Source: Halomonas denitrificans
Lineage (GTDB): Bacteria > Pseudomonadota > Gammaproteobacteria > Xanthomonadales > Wenzhouxiangellaceae
Reading direction: 5' to 3'
Assembly: GCA_019800895.1 (NCBI GenBank)
Contig: JAHVKF010000001.1
Coordinates: 310,001 to 374,000, forward strand
DNA length: 64,000 nt
Part shown: positions 30,018 to 54,779 of the stretch, piece after piece
How the letters are laid out: every line of letters starts with the position of its first letter
How positions within the stretch are numbered: position 1 is the first letter of the stretch
Made by a program: the position numbers and the translations under genes
The notes under the pieces: generated by a model
The model's database searches: none
What the model was told of the DNA's origin: nothing
What the model saw: the letters and a program-made list of their open reading frames with translations, nothing else

Positions 30018-30914
30018 TTACTCGCAGTTCTCGCCGACCCAATCGCGAAACTCTTGGAGGCGATGTGACCAAAAAACCACTACGTCCGCCTCGACGAGCC
30101 TCTCAACGTCCTTCTCAGATATCACACCTTGCAAAAATGCGCCGGTAACAACAAAACTTCCCCAGTGCTCTCTCCAAGAAGTTGCCTTTGTTAGCACATC
30201 ATTTATTCGTTTGACTGAATTGGTAGCATCGTTTGTGACTTTGCATTCAAGCGCGAGCATCTTAGTGTTTCCAAGCCCACATGCAACATCCACTTCTTTG
30301 GGCCTGGTTTTGGTTGCAAATCTTGTCTTGTGCATGAACTTTTTCGCATCCACGTCGCCTCTTGACTCAATTTTCTTACTGGGGATTTGAGACCAACCAA
30401 GCTCCATAAGCGCCTCAATAACAAGCTGCTCCTGCTCACTTGCCAACGCCTTCCTCCTTTCGGTAGCAACTGACTGACTAGCCATCAATGCACAAACCAC
30501 TTCTTGTAATCGCTTCAATTGTGACCAAGAGGGATCAATTCCCGGCTCCACCCACGGGCAGAGGCTCTTATCTAGAATTCGAATTAATACTGATTCCGCA
30601 GCCTTCGCGACATCAGGCTGAAGTCCAACACCAGATTTTTCACTTGCCTTGCTCCATGTTGGACACAGTAAGAGGAACTGATCCTGGCTTATCGGAGGGG
30701 CACAAAGATGACGGAACACTCTCATCGTCCGGCCATCTGTTTCAAGTGCAAGAGGAATACTCAGAAGCCCATTGGACAAACGTAGAGCTTCGCTAATTTG
30801 TCGCCGCTCAGCGCGCTTGGCGGAATACCAACTGTCTACTGCAGAGTCATTGATCTGCGAGTCTATGTAGATTGCTTTAGCTTCTTCACAATATTTCGCT
30901 GCCTCTTCAACCAT
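30018..30914 (-). CDS. Type II restriction endonuclease, possibly XamI-like
   Basis: A 298-residue protein six bases after the stop of the cytosine methyltransferase gene and on the same strand. KEVDVACGLGNTKMLALECKVTND (about residues 210-232) fits a PD-(D/E)xK nuclease core: D, then E-x-K. The rest recalls the XamI family (SQLKRLQEV, INDVLTKATSWREHWG), but this is by eye and the pairing with a C5 methylase is not that of XamI itself. It should cut DNA unmodified by its partner. G+C is visibly lower than the neighbours', so recent transfer is likely. The recognition site cannot be deduced. Confidence 0.7.
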   Translation of the reverse strand: MVEEAAKYCEEAKAIYIDSQINDSAVDSWYSAKRAERRQISEALRLSNGLLSIPLALETDGRTMRVFRHLCAPPISQDQFLLLCPTWSKASEKSGVGLQPDVAKAAESVLIRILDKSLCPWVEPGIDPSWSQLKRLQEVVCALMASQSVATERRKALASEQEQLVIEALMELGWSQIPSKKIESRGDVDAKKFMHKTRFATKTRPKEVDVACGLGNTKMLALECKVTNDATNSVKRINDVLTKATSWREHWGSFVVTGAFLQGVISEKDVERLVEADVVVFWSHRLQEFRDWVGENCE

Positions 30915-30920
30915 GAAGAA

Positions 30921-32108
30921 TCACCTACCAGCTGCGTAGTAGGGGGATCGAACCCTTACTGAACCATTCCTCTTGTCTTCTTTCTCCGTATATCTGACCG
31001 CTGCGGTCATATAATCGGGAAATGGCTTTGACACGTTTTCGCCTTCGTGGGCTCCACTCAGTGAGTCGATCAAAGCTCGCCCCAGCACTTTCCCCAACGG
31101 AGGTGGGACGGCATTGCCAATTTGTCTATACCGTGCAGCTCTACTACCTGTAAAAACCCATTCACTCGGAAAACCCTGTAATGCAGCGGCCTCTGCTACG
31201 GTAATTCGACGCAATCGATTTCGAGTATCCCAGATCCAATCTTGCGACGAAGACGCAGTCACAGTTCGGGCCGGCAGATTTTGATCTGCCACAAATGCGC
31301 CCTGCTTGTAGCCCCAATGCCCCCCAGGCCGTGTCGGCTCTTTGACCCCTCTACTCTTAAGTCCAGTTCCGGGTTTAAGCTCTGAAAGCTGCTTAAATAG
31401 TGAGGCGCTAGGTTGGACTAGCATTTCGTTCTCGGGCTCCATGATGTCTTGGAGTGCAGCCGCCATCGTGACCCACGGCGGAAGACCATCACGTTCGTCC
31501 TTAGAGTGCGAAGGCGTGGGAAACTCAGGAGGTGGCTCTTCAAGAGAAGCAAGCATGAAAAGGCGAACTCTTCTCTGAGGTACGCCAAAGTCGGCCGCGT
31601 TAAGCACCGAAAAATTTGTGCGGTATCCTATACGCTCAAACGACAAGCGCACCAAATTAAGGGCCTCCCCTGGGATTCCACCGGGCCCCCGGGCAGTGAC
31701 CAGTCCGCGGACGTTTTCGAACAGTATCCTACGAGGCTTAATCTCGTCAGCGATTCTCACAAAGTCTTCAAACAAGCGTCCCCTAGAGTCAGCAACAGAC
31801 CGCTGAGCACCCGCGGAGCTAAATGGTTGGCAGGGAGGCCCTCCAACAAGAATATCAGGAGACTCGCCAAGCTCTTCTTTTAACGATAGGCCCGAAATAT
31901 CTTCGTGACCAATCGTTGCGCCTTCCAAATACCGGCGTTTTCGCTTCGCGTTGATTCGTATGCCAGCAAGTTGATTAGCTCGCAGCGTCTCGACACACGA
32001 CCCATCAAAATCGGAGGCTCGAATCAACTCAAAGCCTGCCTGCTCAAGACCAATGTCAAGTCCACCTGCACCAGAAAACAAAGATACTGCTTTGAACACT
32101 TCAGCCAC
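30921..32108 (-). CDS. DNA (cytosine-5) methyltransferase of a type II R-M system
   Basis: A 395-residue protein with all main C5-methyltransferase motifs: I (LFSGAGGLDIG, residues 10-20), IV (GGPPCQPFS, catalytic C93), VI (FENVRGL), VIII (QRRVRLFML), IX (ASSSQDWIWDTRNRLRRITVAEAAALQGFP) and X (YRQIGNAVPPPLGK). It methylates cytosine at a site shared with the adjacent endonuclease. The gene is lower in G+C than its surroundings. It begins 15 bases after the nrdJb stop, on the same strand, so it may be expressed in part from the nrdJ promoter. The methylase-first order protects the host. Confidence 0.95.
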   Translation of the reverse strand: MAEVFKAVSLFSGAGGLDIGLEQAGFELIRASDFDGSCVETLRANQLAGIRINAKRKRRYLEGATIGHEDISGLSLKEELGESPDILVGGPPCQPFSSAGAQRSVADSRGRLFEDFVRIADEIKPRRILFENVRGLVTARGPGGIPGEALNLVRLSFERIGYRTNFSVLNAADFGVPQRRVRLFMLASLEEPPPEFPTPSHSKDERDGLPPWVTMAAALQDIMEPENEMLVQPSASLFKQLSELKPGTGLKSRGVKEPTRPGGHWGYKQGAFVADQNLPARTVTASSSQDWIWDTRNRLRRITVAEAAALQGFPSEWVFTGSRAARYRQIGNAVPPPLGKVLGRALIDSLSGAHEGENVSKPFPDYMTAAVRYTEKEDKRNGSVRVRSPYYAAGR

Positions 32109-32123
32109 CAGAACGCTGCCAGT

Positions 32124-32879
32124 TCATCCACATTTCGAATAGCCGCAGGCCAAGCAGGTTTGACACCCATCCAGCAGCACCAGCGCCTTCGTATTGCACT
32201 TGTGGCACAGCGTCGCGGAGGCCGGGTAGTCTTCGCCGTCGGCGGTTGCGGGTGCCGAGGCGTCGACGACTGCGCCGCCGCTTTCGCGCGCTTCGAGTTC
32301 GGCGCGCTTTTCCTTCAGCATCAGCTGCTGCTGCTCGGACAGCTCGTCCGGCTCGAGCAGGCCGATGCGCTTGAGGTGGACTTCGACCACGGCGCCGATG
32401 TCGGCGACGATGGAGGGGACGAAGCGGCCGCCGGGCTTGAAGTAGCCGCCCTTGGGGTCGAACACGGCCTGGAGCTCCTCGCACAGGAAGGTGACGTCAC
32501 CGCCCTTCCGGAACACGGCGGACATGACGCGGGTCAGGGCCACGATCCACTGGAAGTGGTCCATGTTCTTGGAGTTGATGAAGATCTCGAAGGGCCGGCG
32601 CTGCTCGTGCTCGGTGCCGGCGTTGAGCACGATGTCGTTGATCGTGACGTACATCGCGTGGTCGTCGAGCGGGGTCCGGATCTTGTAGGTGGCGCCTTCG
32701 AGGCACTCCATGCCTTCCGGGCGCTCGAGCTTCTCGTGCATCCGGATGATGTCAGCGGACTTGCCGCGACCGGCGCGACCACCGTCCTCCTTGACCGCCT
32801 CGGCGGGCGGGGCCTCTTCGGCCTTGCTCTTGTCCTTGACCTGGTACCCCACGATCTTCTTGCTGATCTTGACCGTCAT
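32124..32879 (-). CDS. nrdJb: Ribonucleotide reductase class II, small C-terminal component
   Basis: A 251-residue protein from ATG 32879 (MTVKISKKIVGYQVKDKSK). It contains a TSCPD domain (about residues 60-170: ATYKIRTPLDDHAMYVTIND, FEIFINSKNMDHFQWIVAL, TRVMSAVFRKGGD) and ends with cysteine pairs LCHKCNTKALVLLDGCQTCLACGYSKCG. In split class II enzymes such as Pseudomonas NrdJab, this part supplies the C-terminal redox cysteines that re-reduce the active site of NrdJa. It lies downstream of nrdJa on the same strand but separated by 840 repeat-rich bases, unlike the close spacing usual elsewhere. Confidence 0.9.
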   Translation of the reverse strand: MTVKISKKIVGYQVKDKSKAEEAPPAEAVKEDGGRAGRGKSADIIRMHEKLERPEGMECLEGATYKIRTPLDDHAMYVTINDIVLNAGTEHEQRRPFEIFINSKNMDHFQWIVALTRVMSAVFRKGGDVTFLCEELQAVFDPKGGYFKPGGRFVPSIVADIGAVVEVHLKRIGLLEPDELSEQQQLMLKEKRAELEARESGGAVVDASAPATADGEDYPASATLCHKCNTKALVLLDGCQTCLACGYSKCG

Positions 32880-33719: not shown

Positions 33720-35864
33720 TTAAAACTTGCCGTAGTAGCCTTCCTTGAGCGCATCAAACAGGTTGGCCGCCGTATGCATCTCGCCGTCGTACTCGACCTC
33801 TTCGTTGCCCTTCAGCTCGATCTGCTCGCCGCCCTCCAGCTCGAACACGTAGGTGGTGTTCTCCAGGTCCTTCTCCGTGACGAGCACGCCCTGGAAGGCT
33901 TCCGGGTTGAAGCGGAAGGTGGTGCAGCCCTTCAGGCCCTGCTCCCACGCGAACAGGTAGATGTCCTTGAAGTCCTCGTAGGGATAGTCGGTCGGCACGT
34001 TGGCGGTCTTGGAGATGCTCGAGTCCACCCACTTCTGCGCCGCGGCCTGGATCGAGACGTGCTCCTTCGGCGTGATCGTCTCGGCGGTCAGGAAGTAGTC
34101 CGGCAGCTGTTCTTCCGGGTCGTCGGAGAACGGCATGGCCTTCGGGTTGACCAGCGTGCGGTAGGCCAGCAGTTCGTAGGAATAGACGCTGACCTTTTCC
34201 TTCGACTTGCGGCCCTCGCGGATCACGTTGCGGTTGTAGTGGTGCGCGAAGCTCGGCTCGATGCCGTTCGAGGCGTTGTTGGCCAGCGAGAGCGAAATGG
34301 TGCCGGTCGGCGCGATCGAGGTGTGGTGGGTGAAGCGCGCGCCGGTCTCGGCGAGGCGGTCGACCAGCTCGGGGGCCACTTCGGCCACCTTCTGCATGTA
34401 GCGGCTGTAGCGCGCGTGCAGCACCTTGCCGGGCACGCGATCGCCGACCTTGTAGCCGTCCTTCGCCATCTCGGGGCGCTTGCGCAGCATCTCGGCGGTC
34501 ACCTCGAACTCGTCGAGCATGATCGGCGCCGGTCCCTTCTCCTGCGCAAGCTCCAGGCCGGCCTCCCAACCGGCCACGGCCATCTCGCGGGCCACCTTCT
34601 CGGTAAAGTCCAGGGAATCGGGGTCGCCGTACTTCTTGCACAGCATGGTCAGCGTCGAGCCCAGGCCCAGGAAGCCCATGCCGTGGCGGCGCTTGTATTC
34701 GATTTCGCGGCGCTGCTGGCCCAGCGGCAGGCCGTTGACTTCGACCACGTTGTCCAGCATGCGGGTGAAGATCTTGACCGCCTTGCGGTACTCGTCCCAG
34801 TTGAACGAGGCCTCGTCGGTAAAGGGTTTTTCGACGAAGCGGGTCAGGTTGACCGAGCCCAGCAGGCAGGCGCCGTAGGGCGGCAGCGGCTGCTCGCCGC
34901 AGGGGTTGGTCGCGCGGATGGTCTCGACGAACCAGTTGTTGTTCTGCTCGTTGATCCGGTCGACCAGGATGAAGCCCGGCTCGGCGTAGTCGTAGGTCGA
35001 CGACATGATCATGTTCCACAGGCGCTTGGCCGGGACGGTCTTGTAGACCTTGCAGGCGACCAGGCCTTCCTCGTTGGACACGTAGCCCGACTGGATCGGC
35101 CACTCGCGCCAGATCACCTGCTTCGGGTCGTCCAGGTCCAGCTCGTCGGCTTCGGTTTCGAGCACCGGGAAGACCAGCGGCCAGTCGGCCTCGTCCTGCA
35201 CGGCGCGGATGAAGTCGTCGGTGATCAGCAGCGAGCAGTTGAACTGGCGCAGGACGCCGTTCTCGCGCTTGGCACGGATGAAGTCCATGACGTCCGGGTG
35301 CGAGACATCGAAAGTGGCCATCTGCGCGCCGCGCCGGCCGCCGGCAGAGCTCACGGTGAAGCACATCTTGTCGTAGATGTCCATGAACGACATCGGGCCC
35401 GAAGTGTAGGCGCCGGCGCCGGACACGTAGGCGCCCTTCGGCCGCAGGGTCGAGAACTCGTAGCCGATGCCGCAGCCGGCCTTCAGCGTCAGCCCGGCCT
35501 CGTGGACCTTGCCGAGAATGTCGTTCATCGAGTCGCCGATCGTGCCCGACACGGTGCAGTTGATGGTCGAGGTGGCCGGCTTGTAGGCCTGGGCTCCGGC
35601 GTTGGACGTGATCCGCCCGGCCGGGATCACGCCGCGGCGCAGCGCCCACAGGAACTCCCGGTACCAGGTCTCCTTGGCGTCGGTCCCCTCTTCCGCATCG
35701 GCCAGCGCCCGCGCAACCCGCTTGTAGGTGTCATCGATCGTCTCGTCGATGATTTCTCCCGACTTGGACTTGAGACGATATTTCTTGTCCCAGATGTCCA
35801 GCGACGCTTCCTGGAATTCGATCTCCGGGAGCGCTGCGTTCAGTGCTTCAGCCGATACACTCAT
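33720..35864 (-). CDS. nrdJa: Adenosylcobalamin-dependent (class II) ribonucleotide reductase, large component
   Basis: A 714-residue protein from ATG 35864 ([14 protein letters not shown]), with AGAGG upstream. It reduces ribonucleotides to deoxyribonucleotides using vitamin B12. Landmarks: [19 protein letters not shown] (first active-site cysteine), [49 protein letters not shown] (the N-x-C-x-E radical and proton-transfer site) and [24 protein letters not shown]. It lacks the C-terminal TSCPD/redox part, which is encoded by nrdJb, matching the split NrdJa/NrdJb arrangement of Pseudomonas. Upstream lie two DnaA boxes and two NrdR boxes, so it is likely tuned to replication and to nucleotide levels. 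Confidence 0.95.
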
Positions 35865-35913: not shown

Positions 35914-35922
35914 TTATCCACA
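35914..35922 (+). promoter_or_regulatory. DnaA box 1 upstream of nrdJa
   Basis: TTATCCACA, a perfect consensus DnaA box, 50 bases upstream of the nrdJa start. A second lies 23 bases further. DnaA boxes control nrd genes in E. coli; here the link is by position only. Confidence 0.65.
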
Positions 35923-35936
35923 GCTTGTGAGCCGTT

Positions 35937-35945
35937 TTATCCACA
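35937..35945 (+). promoter_or_regulatory. DnaA box 2 upstream of nrdJa
   Basis: TTATCCACA, identical to box 1 and in the same orientation. It overlaps the first five bases of the proximal NrdR-like box, so the two regulators could compete for this DNA. Confidence 0.65.
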
Positions 35946-35956
35946 AACCCTTGTGC
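35941..35956. promoter_or_regulatory. NrdR-like box, proximal
   Basis: ccacaaacccttgtgc, a 16-base imperfect palindrome of the form CACAA-N4-TTGTG. Its start lies exactly 32 bases from that of the distal box, matching the usual three-turn spacing of paired NrdR boxes. NrdR represses ribonucleotide reductase genes. Confidence 0.6.
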
Positions 35957-35972
35957 GCTGGGCAAAATTTGC

Positions 35973-35988
35973 ACACAAGATGTTGTGT
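35973..35988. promoter_or_regulatory. NrdR box, distal
   Basis: acacaagatgttgtgt, a near-perfect 16-base palindrome that fits the NrdR consensus (ACAC...GTGT ends with an A/T-rich centre). It lies between the divergent nrdJa and trmL genes. Confidence 0.7.
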
Positions 35989-36051
35989 TTCAGGGCTACG
36001 ACGATACGCGCTCCGGTTCACACTTTCAAGAAGATTCTCCGTCGATTTTCG

Positions 36052-36600
36052 ATGGGAACGACGCCTGATTCGAACGGAAAAGCCCAAGTGACTGATTCAT
36101 CGGAATTCCCCGCCACGCCCCACCGGACCGTGCTGCCGGAGATCGTTCTGGTGGCCCCGGAAATCCCGCCGAACACCGGCAACATCCTGCGCCTGTGCGC
36201 CAACACCGGCGCCCGCCTGCACCTGGTCCGGCCGCTGGGATTCGCGCTCGACGATCGCCGCCTCCGCCGGGCCGGGCTGGACCACGTGGAGCGCGAACGG
36301 CTCGCCGTCCACGCGGATTTCGCCGCCTGCCGGCAGGCCCTGGGCACCCACCGCCGATGGCTGGCCGTGGAGACCGGCGGCGCGGTACGGTACGACCGGG
36401 TGGCGTATCGCGCGGACGACGTGCTGGTGTTCGGCTCCGAGACGAAGGGGCTGCCGGAAGGCGTGCTGGCCGAATTCGACGAGGATCGCCGGGTGCGGAT
36501 TCCGCAGCGCCCCGGCTCGCGAAGCCTGAATCTCTCCAACTCGGTTGCCGTCGCGATCTACGAGGCGTGGCGACAGCTGGGGTTCGAAGGCGCGGACTAG
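36052..36600 (+). CDS. trmL: tRNA (cytidine/uridine-34 2'-O) methyltransferase
   Basis: A 182-residue SPOUT-class protein. ATG 36052 gives a 25-residue N-terminal extension beyond the usual family start; GTG 36088, with a GGA about 10 bases upstream, is a good alternative (170 residues). It methylates the wobble nucleotide of tRNA-Leu. Motifs: [46 protein letters not shown] and [27 protein letters not shown], the knotted SAM-binding site. The gene is divergent from nrdJa, sharing 187 bases of control DNA. Confidence 0.9.
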
Positions 36601-54450: not shown

Positions 54451-54543
54451 TGGCGGAGAGAGAGGGATTCGAACCCTCGATGGGGCTTTTGACCCCATAC
54501 TCCCTTAGCAGGGGAGCGCCTTCAGCCACTCGGCCACCTCTCC
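54451..54543 (-). tRNA. tRNA-Ser (anticodon GCU)
   Basis: The 93-nt transcript (with encoded CCA) starts GGAGAGGTGGCCGAGTGG and folds with a 7-bp acceptor stem, a D arm, an anticodon loop CTGCTAA (GCU, reading AGC/AGU), the long variable arm of class II tRNAs and the T arm GGTTCGAATCC. The CCA end is encoded at 54451-54453. Confidence 0.95.
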
Positions 54544-54667: not shown

Positions 54668-54779
54668 GGTGGTCCTCGTCGGTCTCCCCGCACCACGAAC
54701 CCGTGAACCCCGTCAGGCCCGGAAGGGAGCAGCGGCAGCGGGGGATGTGGGTGACGGGATCGGGCGGTCGGGGGCCACC
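54668..54779 (+). ncRNA. ffs: Signal recognition particle RNA, 4.5S type
   Basis: The core GTCAGGCCCGGAAGGGAGCAGC, conserved in 4.5S RNA, forms the Ffh-binding tip with its asymmetric loop. The 5' end ggtggtcc pairs with the 3' end gggccacc, and ccccgc... pairs inside. It is about 112 nt, close to E. coli (114). A GACAAT-type -10 precedes it at about 54655 and a hairpin terminator follows. Confidence 0.9.

Follow-up and report, generated by a model that had tools for sequence, protein, structure and literature searches.

The coupling of dNTP supply to replication is understood mainly from the E. coli nrdAB operon, in which the sites for DnaA and NrdR are separate and other reductases are present in the cell. 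The nrdAB promoter serves a class Ia enzyme, and its DnaA double box, TTATCCACAaagTTATGCACT, precedes the NrdR pair by about 47 bp, is directed towards the gene and shares no bases with the NrdR boxes. In E. coli nrdDG, which encodes a class III reductase, the NrdR pair is upstream, and a consensus DnaA box, TGTGGATAA on the gene strand, is found downstream of it, before the start codon. Distances of 64 and 141 bp separate the DnaA boxes of nrdDG from NrdR box 2, with no overlap, and a TATAAT resembling a -10 element is located downstream of the NrdR boxes. The nrdDG leader was bound by DnaA in ChIP-seq experiments (PMC11317965). The tandem double boxes of E. coli combine a strong box with a weak partner of the same direction at a distance of 2-3 bp. 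Gaps of 2 or 3 bp between tandem boxes are favoured by E. coli DnaA, and the partner box at rpoH matches at 4 of 9 positions (PMC11317965).

Class II reductases with two NrdR boxes have been described in P. aeruginosa (nrdJab, where the enzyme is split) and in S. coelicolor (nrdRJ). NrdR represses these genes aerobically (PMC4409342, PMC9110341), and the accounts of the two promoters that were consulted mention no DnaA site. A literature search for the combination of a class II reductase and a DnaA box, in a body of work that lacked key older papers, returned no paper.

The window, which is the whole 64,000-nucleotide stretch of Halomonas denitrificans DNA that was analysed, carries a split class II reductase whose nrdJ is closest to that of Wenzhouxiangellaceae. 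The nrdJa gene (33720-35864, reverse strand) encodes an adenosylcobalamin-dependent (class II) ribonucleotide reductase of 714 residues, with its ATG start codon at 35864 preceded by the ribosome-binding site AAGAGG. The second part, an nrdJb-like gene (32124-32873, reverse strand), matches the C-terminal part of a class II model. The divergent gene on the forward strand (36052-36600), starting at ATG 36052 or GTG 36088, was assigned to trmL, encoding a tRNA 2'-O-methyltransferase; the score was under the curated cut-off of the TrmL models, yet this was the best family by far. Both nrdR and dnaA are encoded in the genome. Neither a class I small subunit nor a class III reductase was found in the genome, which has a completeness of 99.98%, so that the cell appears to rely on nrdJ as its only reductase.

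Several other features were noted as well. The segment directly behind nrdJb (30018-32108) holds an open reading frame that reads as a C5 cytosine DNA methyltransferase and is followed by a further frame, perhaps as a restriction-modification unit. In several relatives, nrdJa has an in-frame interruption of about 380 residues at the active site NPC/CGEQ motif, with an intein-like start and endonuclease-like motifs, as in L174 (G036:C1:1873500-1874900); the copy in the window is free of this insert. The segments at 54677-54773 and 54454-54543 of the window correspond to a bacterial small SRP RNA and a tRNA, both ordinary.

The gap between nrdJa and trmL contains two exact DnaA boxes, TTATCCACA, both on the forward strand and 23 bp apart, designated box 2 (35914-35922) and box 1 (35937-35945). 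It also contains two NrdR palindromes, features without a strand, that are 32 bp apart. NrdR box 1, ACACAAGATGTTGTGT (35973-35988), has no mismatches to ACACWAN4TWGTGT and NrdR box 2, CCACAAACCCTTGTGC (35941-35956), has two; the CACAA-N4-TTGTG cores begin one base after the start of each 16-mer. The 32-bp distance agrees with the three helical turns (31-32 bp) expected for the spacing of an NrdR tetramer, and the locus has the traits of a putative NrdR regulon member, namely paired palindromes, a reductase gene downstream, a predicted promoter nearby and nrdR in the genome. The last bases of DnaA box 1 are a half-site of NrdR box 2, and the two sites have 5 bp in common (35941-35945). The 23-bp spacing of the DnaA boxes can accommodate one further 9-mer. 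A weak DnaA-like middle site, TTGTGAGCC (35925-35933, forward strand), occupies this position, with a gap of 2 bp to box 2 and of 3 bp to box 1. A previous sequence-only reading of this DNA had described both exact DnaA boxes in the same orientation, the two palindromes 32 bp apart and the bases shared by a DnaA and an NrdR box. All of these were confirmed to the base; the weak middle box and the tandem spacing of 2 and 3 bp had been missed. Pattern searches of the whole 3.21-Mb genome found six exact copies of TTATCCACA, two of them at nrdJ, and three CACWAN4TWGTG palindromes, two at nrdJ and the third inside an open frame reading like queE. The arrangement at nrdJ is beyond chance.

The only sigma-70-like promoter predicted in the gap is on the reverse strand, with a -35 element TTGAAA (36024-36029) and a -10 element TATCGT (36001-36006) separated by a 17-bp spacer. 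A promoter of the form TTGA-N17-TANNNT recurs just upstream of the NrdR boxes across the family. Transcription is predicted to start near 35994, relative to which the NrdR boxes span about +6 to +53 and the DnaA array about +49 to +80. Since the predicted promoter is upstream of all of the boxes, the DnaA array would be within the transcribed leader. In the direction of transcription the DnaA boxes follow the NrdR pair, and their orientation is away from the gene.

The sequence-only reading had likened this region to the control region of E. coli nrdAB, with a different enzyme class. The likeness consists of DnaA and NrdR sites on one reductase promoter, and their combination at a class II reductase is supported by the boxes and by their conservation in relatives. 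The layout is not alike, the DnaA boxes here being downstream, in the opposite orientation, overlapping an NrdR box and in the predicted leader. As a comparison, nrdAB is therefore fair in concept though not in anatomy. For layout, nrdDG is a nearer match than nrdAB, its TGTGGATAA having the orientation seen here. However, nrdDG differs in enzyme class, in the distance between its DnaA and NrdR boxes, in having the weak partner on the opposite flank of the strong box and in its -10-like TATAAT downstream of the NrdR boxes, whereas the predicted -10 element is upstream here.

The comparison covered the DNA upstream of nrdJ in 80 species of a genome collection and in 43 genomes of this family. 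Forty family promoters were usable, and the clade of interest comprises three genera (g1, g5 and g7) with 34 examinable genomes. The NrdR pair with 32-bp spacing was present in all 40 promoters, and TTATNCACA was found downstream of it in 34 of the 34 clade genomes, its distance to the start of NrdR box 2 being 33 or 34 bp, or 42 and 45 bp in two genomes that bear insertions. The sequence-only reading had named a lack of conservation in relatives as grounds for giving up its claim; the arrangement is kept throughout the clade. Box 2, the most conserved DnaA box, reads TTATGCACA in 15 genomes, TTATCCACA in nine and TTATACACA and TTATTCACA in five each; eight of its nine positions are invariant, and variation is confined to the position left as N in the DnaA consensus TTWTNCACA. 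In the 26 promoters with the same spacing, pairwise identity was about 0.29 in the flanks, 0.92 in box 2 and 0.84-0.86 in the NrdR boxes. The NrdR cores were invariant in the 26 aligned relatives, and the outer bases of NrdR box 2 were off consensus on the DnaA side throughout the clade. Conservation among relatives is the strongest evidence that the arrangement is genuine.

The DnaA array was not found at nrdJ in six other genomes of the family, which belong to other genera, or in nearly all Lysobacteraceae, and it is therefore not required for nrdJ control in general. A tree was built from 36 NrdJ proteins, of which 23 belong to promoters with the box. The box-bearing entries formed one group (96/97 support), which fits a single gain, and the arrangement seems to have originated once within one family. 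Among 76 more distant nrdJ promoters, five had TTWTNCACA within 400 bp compared to 2.2 expected, and five or more matches were obtained in 4 of 100 shuffles of the distant promoters. Outside the family, DnaA boxes beside nrdJ are at most a weak tendency. In seven other gammaproteobacteria (L030, L032, L033, L046, L065, L073 and L077), two strong NrdR boxes at nrdJ are about 165 bp apart instead of 32, a spacing for which a looping arrangement is conceivable; in L033 and L073, TTATCCACA is near the distal NrdR box.

Each of the 34 clade genomes has a second DnaA-like box, equivalent to box 1, at a distance of 22 or 23 bp from box 2. It matches TTWTNCACA exactly in nine and with one mismatch in 20. 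It falls under the E. coli consensus in most relatives, where it is represented by TTGTCCACA, TTGTTCACA, TTTTCCACA and other weaker forms. In 32 of the 34 genomes, box 1 overlaps NrdR box 2. In the other two, G018 (L125) and G005 (L092), insertions of 8 and 11 bp, respectively, repeat the shared TTGTGA or most of it, so that NrdR box 2 and the DnaA box (TTATTCACA and TTACTCACA) are separate, with the latter still 23 bp from box 2. Both insertion lineages have retained both sites, which speaks for a dual function of the shared bases. The middle site, at offset 11, had the third-best average likeness to the DnaA consensus among 52 offsets when the 34 relatives were scored (4.5 of 8, versus about 2 elsewhere), although it is weak in the window, where 4 of 9 bases match. 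With this putative partner, the array would resemble the E. coli double boxes in combining strong and weak boxes of the same direction at 2-3 bp, but there are apparently three in a row here and four in G005. A third NrdR box beneath DnaA box 2 was considered and rejected because neither the spacing nor the half-sites fit.

Several observations bear on whether these 9-mers are DnaA sites. Variants that are also seen at nrdJ, namely TTATCCACA, TTGTCCACA and TCATCCACA, are present in the dnaA-dnaN regions examined in 30 genomes of the family. The candidate oriC of this genome has TCATCCACAGCTT twice, with a flank common to box 2 at nrdJ (TTATCCACAGCTT), and domain IV of its DnaA, when aligned to that of E. 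coli (1J1V), is identical through the helix-turn-helix. It is quite improbable that TGTGNATAA is instead a -10 element, an RNA element or the site of another factor. NATAAC/G partly resembles TATAAT, but conservation is lacking at the first and last T, the key bases of a -10 element, which makes such an element unlikely, while the base that is free to vary coincides with the DnaA consensus N; moreover, the same 9-mers are used in oriC of the same genomes and the partner at 22-23 bp fits DnaA. No consensus RNA fold was found in the nrdJ leader, and no Rfam family, cobalamin or other riboswitch, matched it; the -10, conserved RNA structure and riboswitch readings were all rejected. That DnaA-like 9-mers came to lie beside an ordinary NrdR pair by chance is scarcely credible. 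Single 9-mers do arise in this way, but TTWTNCACA occurs in 34 of the 40 family promoters versus 1.1 expected from shuffles (maximum 4), and two of the six exact boxes in the genome are here. It is also unlikely, if a little less so than the -10 or RNA reading, that the site is mainly a locus for DnaA titration or nucleotide exchange that happens to occupy the nrdJ leader. The tandem arrays datA and DARS of E. coli are bound by DnaA and have such roles, but the array at nrdJ is short and its position is fixed, with a distance of 33-45 bp to NrdR box 2 across the 34 genomes. Other clusters of DnaA boxes were observed in this genome at G000:C3:567569-567770, G000:C1:769998-770194 and G000:C1:574950, their settings being between ychF-like and sbcB-like genes, before an argS-like gene and among nuo-like genes (gene names read from the frames); these may be titration or reactivation sites.

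If DnaA does act at this site, it could oppose NrdR or act beside it. Because of the bases common to DnaA box 1 and NrdR box 2, the two proteins should interfere and are probably unable to occupy these sites simultaneously. DnaA may be an anti-repressor in direct competition with NrdR, ATP-DnaA growing along the three-box leader array as its level rises before initiation and evicting the dNTP-sensing repressor from NrdR box 2, so that nrdJ is derepressed at the onset of replication. We regard this as possible but doubtful. It is consistent with the sharing of bases in 32 of 34 genomes, with the need of NrdR for both boxes and with the drift of the outer base of NrdR box 2 from T to G or A, which suits DnaA. 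However, the two lineages in which the sites are separated and both kept indicate that overlap is not essential, and DnaA bound along the leader would be expected in its own right to impede RNA polymerase. The alternative that we favour, with moderate confidence, is two-input control of nrdJab, in which DnaA in the leader would act mainly as a replication-linked second brake. DnaA would anchor at box 2 and spread cooperatively over the middle site to box 1, and this leader-bound DnaA could slow transcription that starts just upstream. We infer both the binding of DnaA and the sign of its regulation at nrdJ; net repression is our preference, and the sign is a guess by analogy with E. coli, in which high DnaA-ATP represses nrdAB (PMC8203912).

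Judged by its boxes and their retention in relatives, the arrangement is a real and conserved instance of the known DnaA and NrdR control, here newly on a class II reductase. DnaA and NrdR appear to meet on overlapping sites at what is apparently the only reductase, an enzyme of a different class from that of nrdAB. The arrangement makes the interplay between DnaA and NrdR directly testable, the two genomes with separated sites serving as natural controls. If competition were true, the apparent sole reductase would be switched by both replication initiation and the dNTP level through one overlapping site. In this bacterium and 33 relatives, the nrdJ operon is probably tuned by nucleotide supply and by the state of replication.
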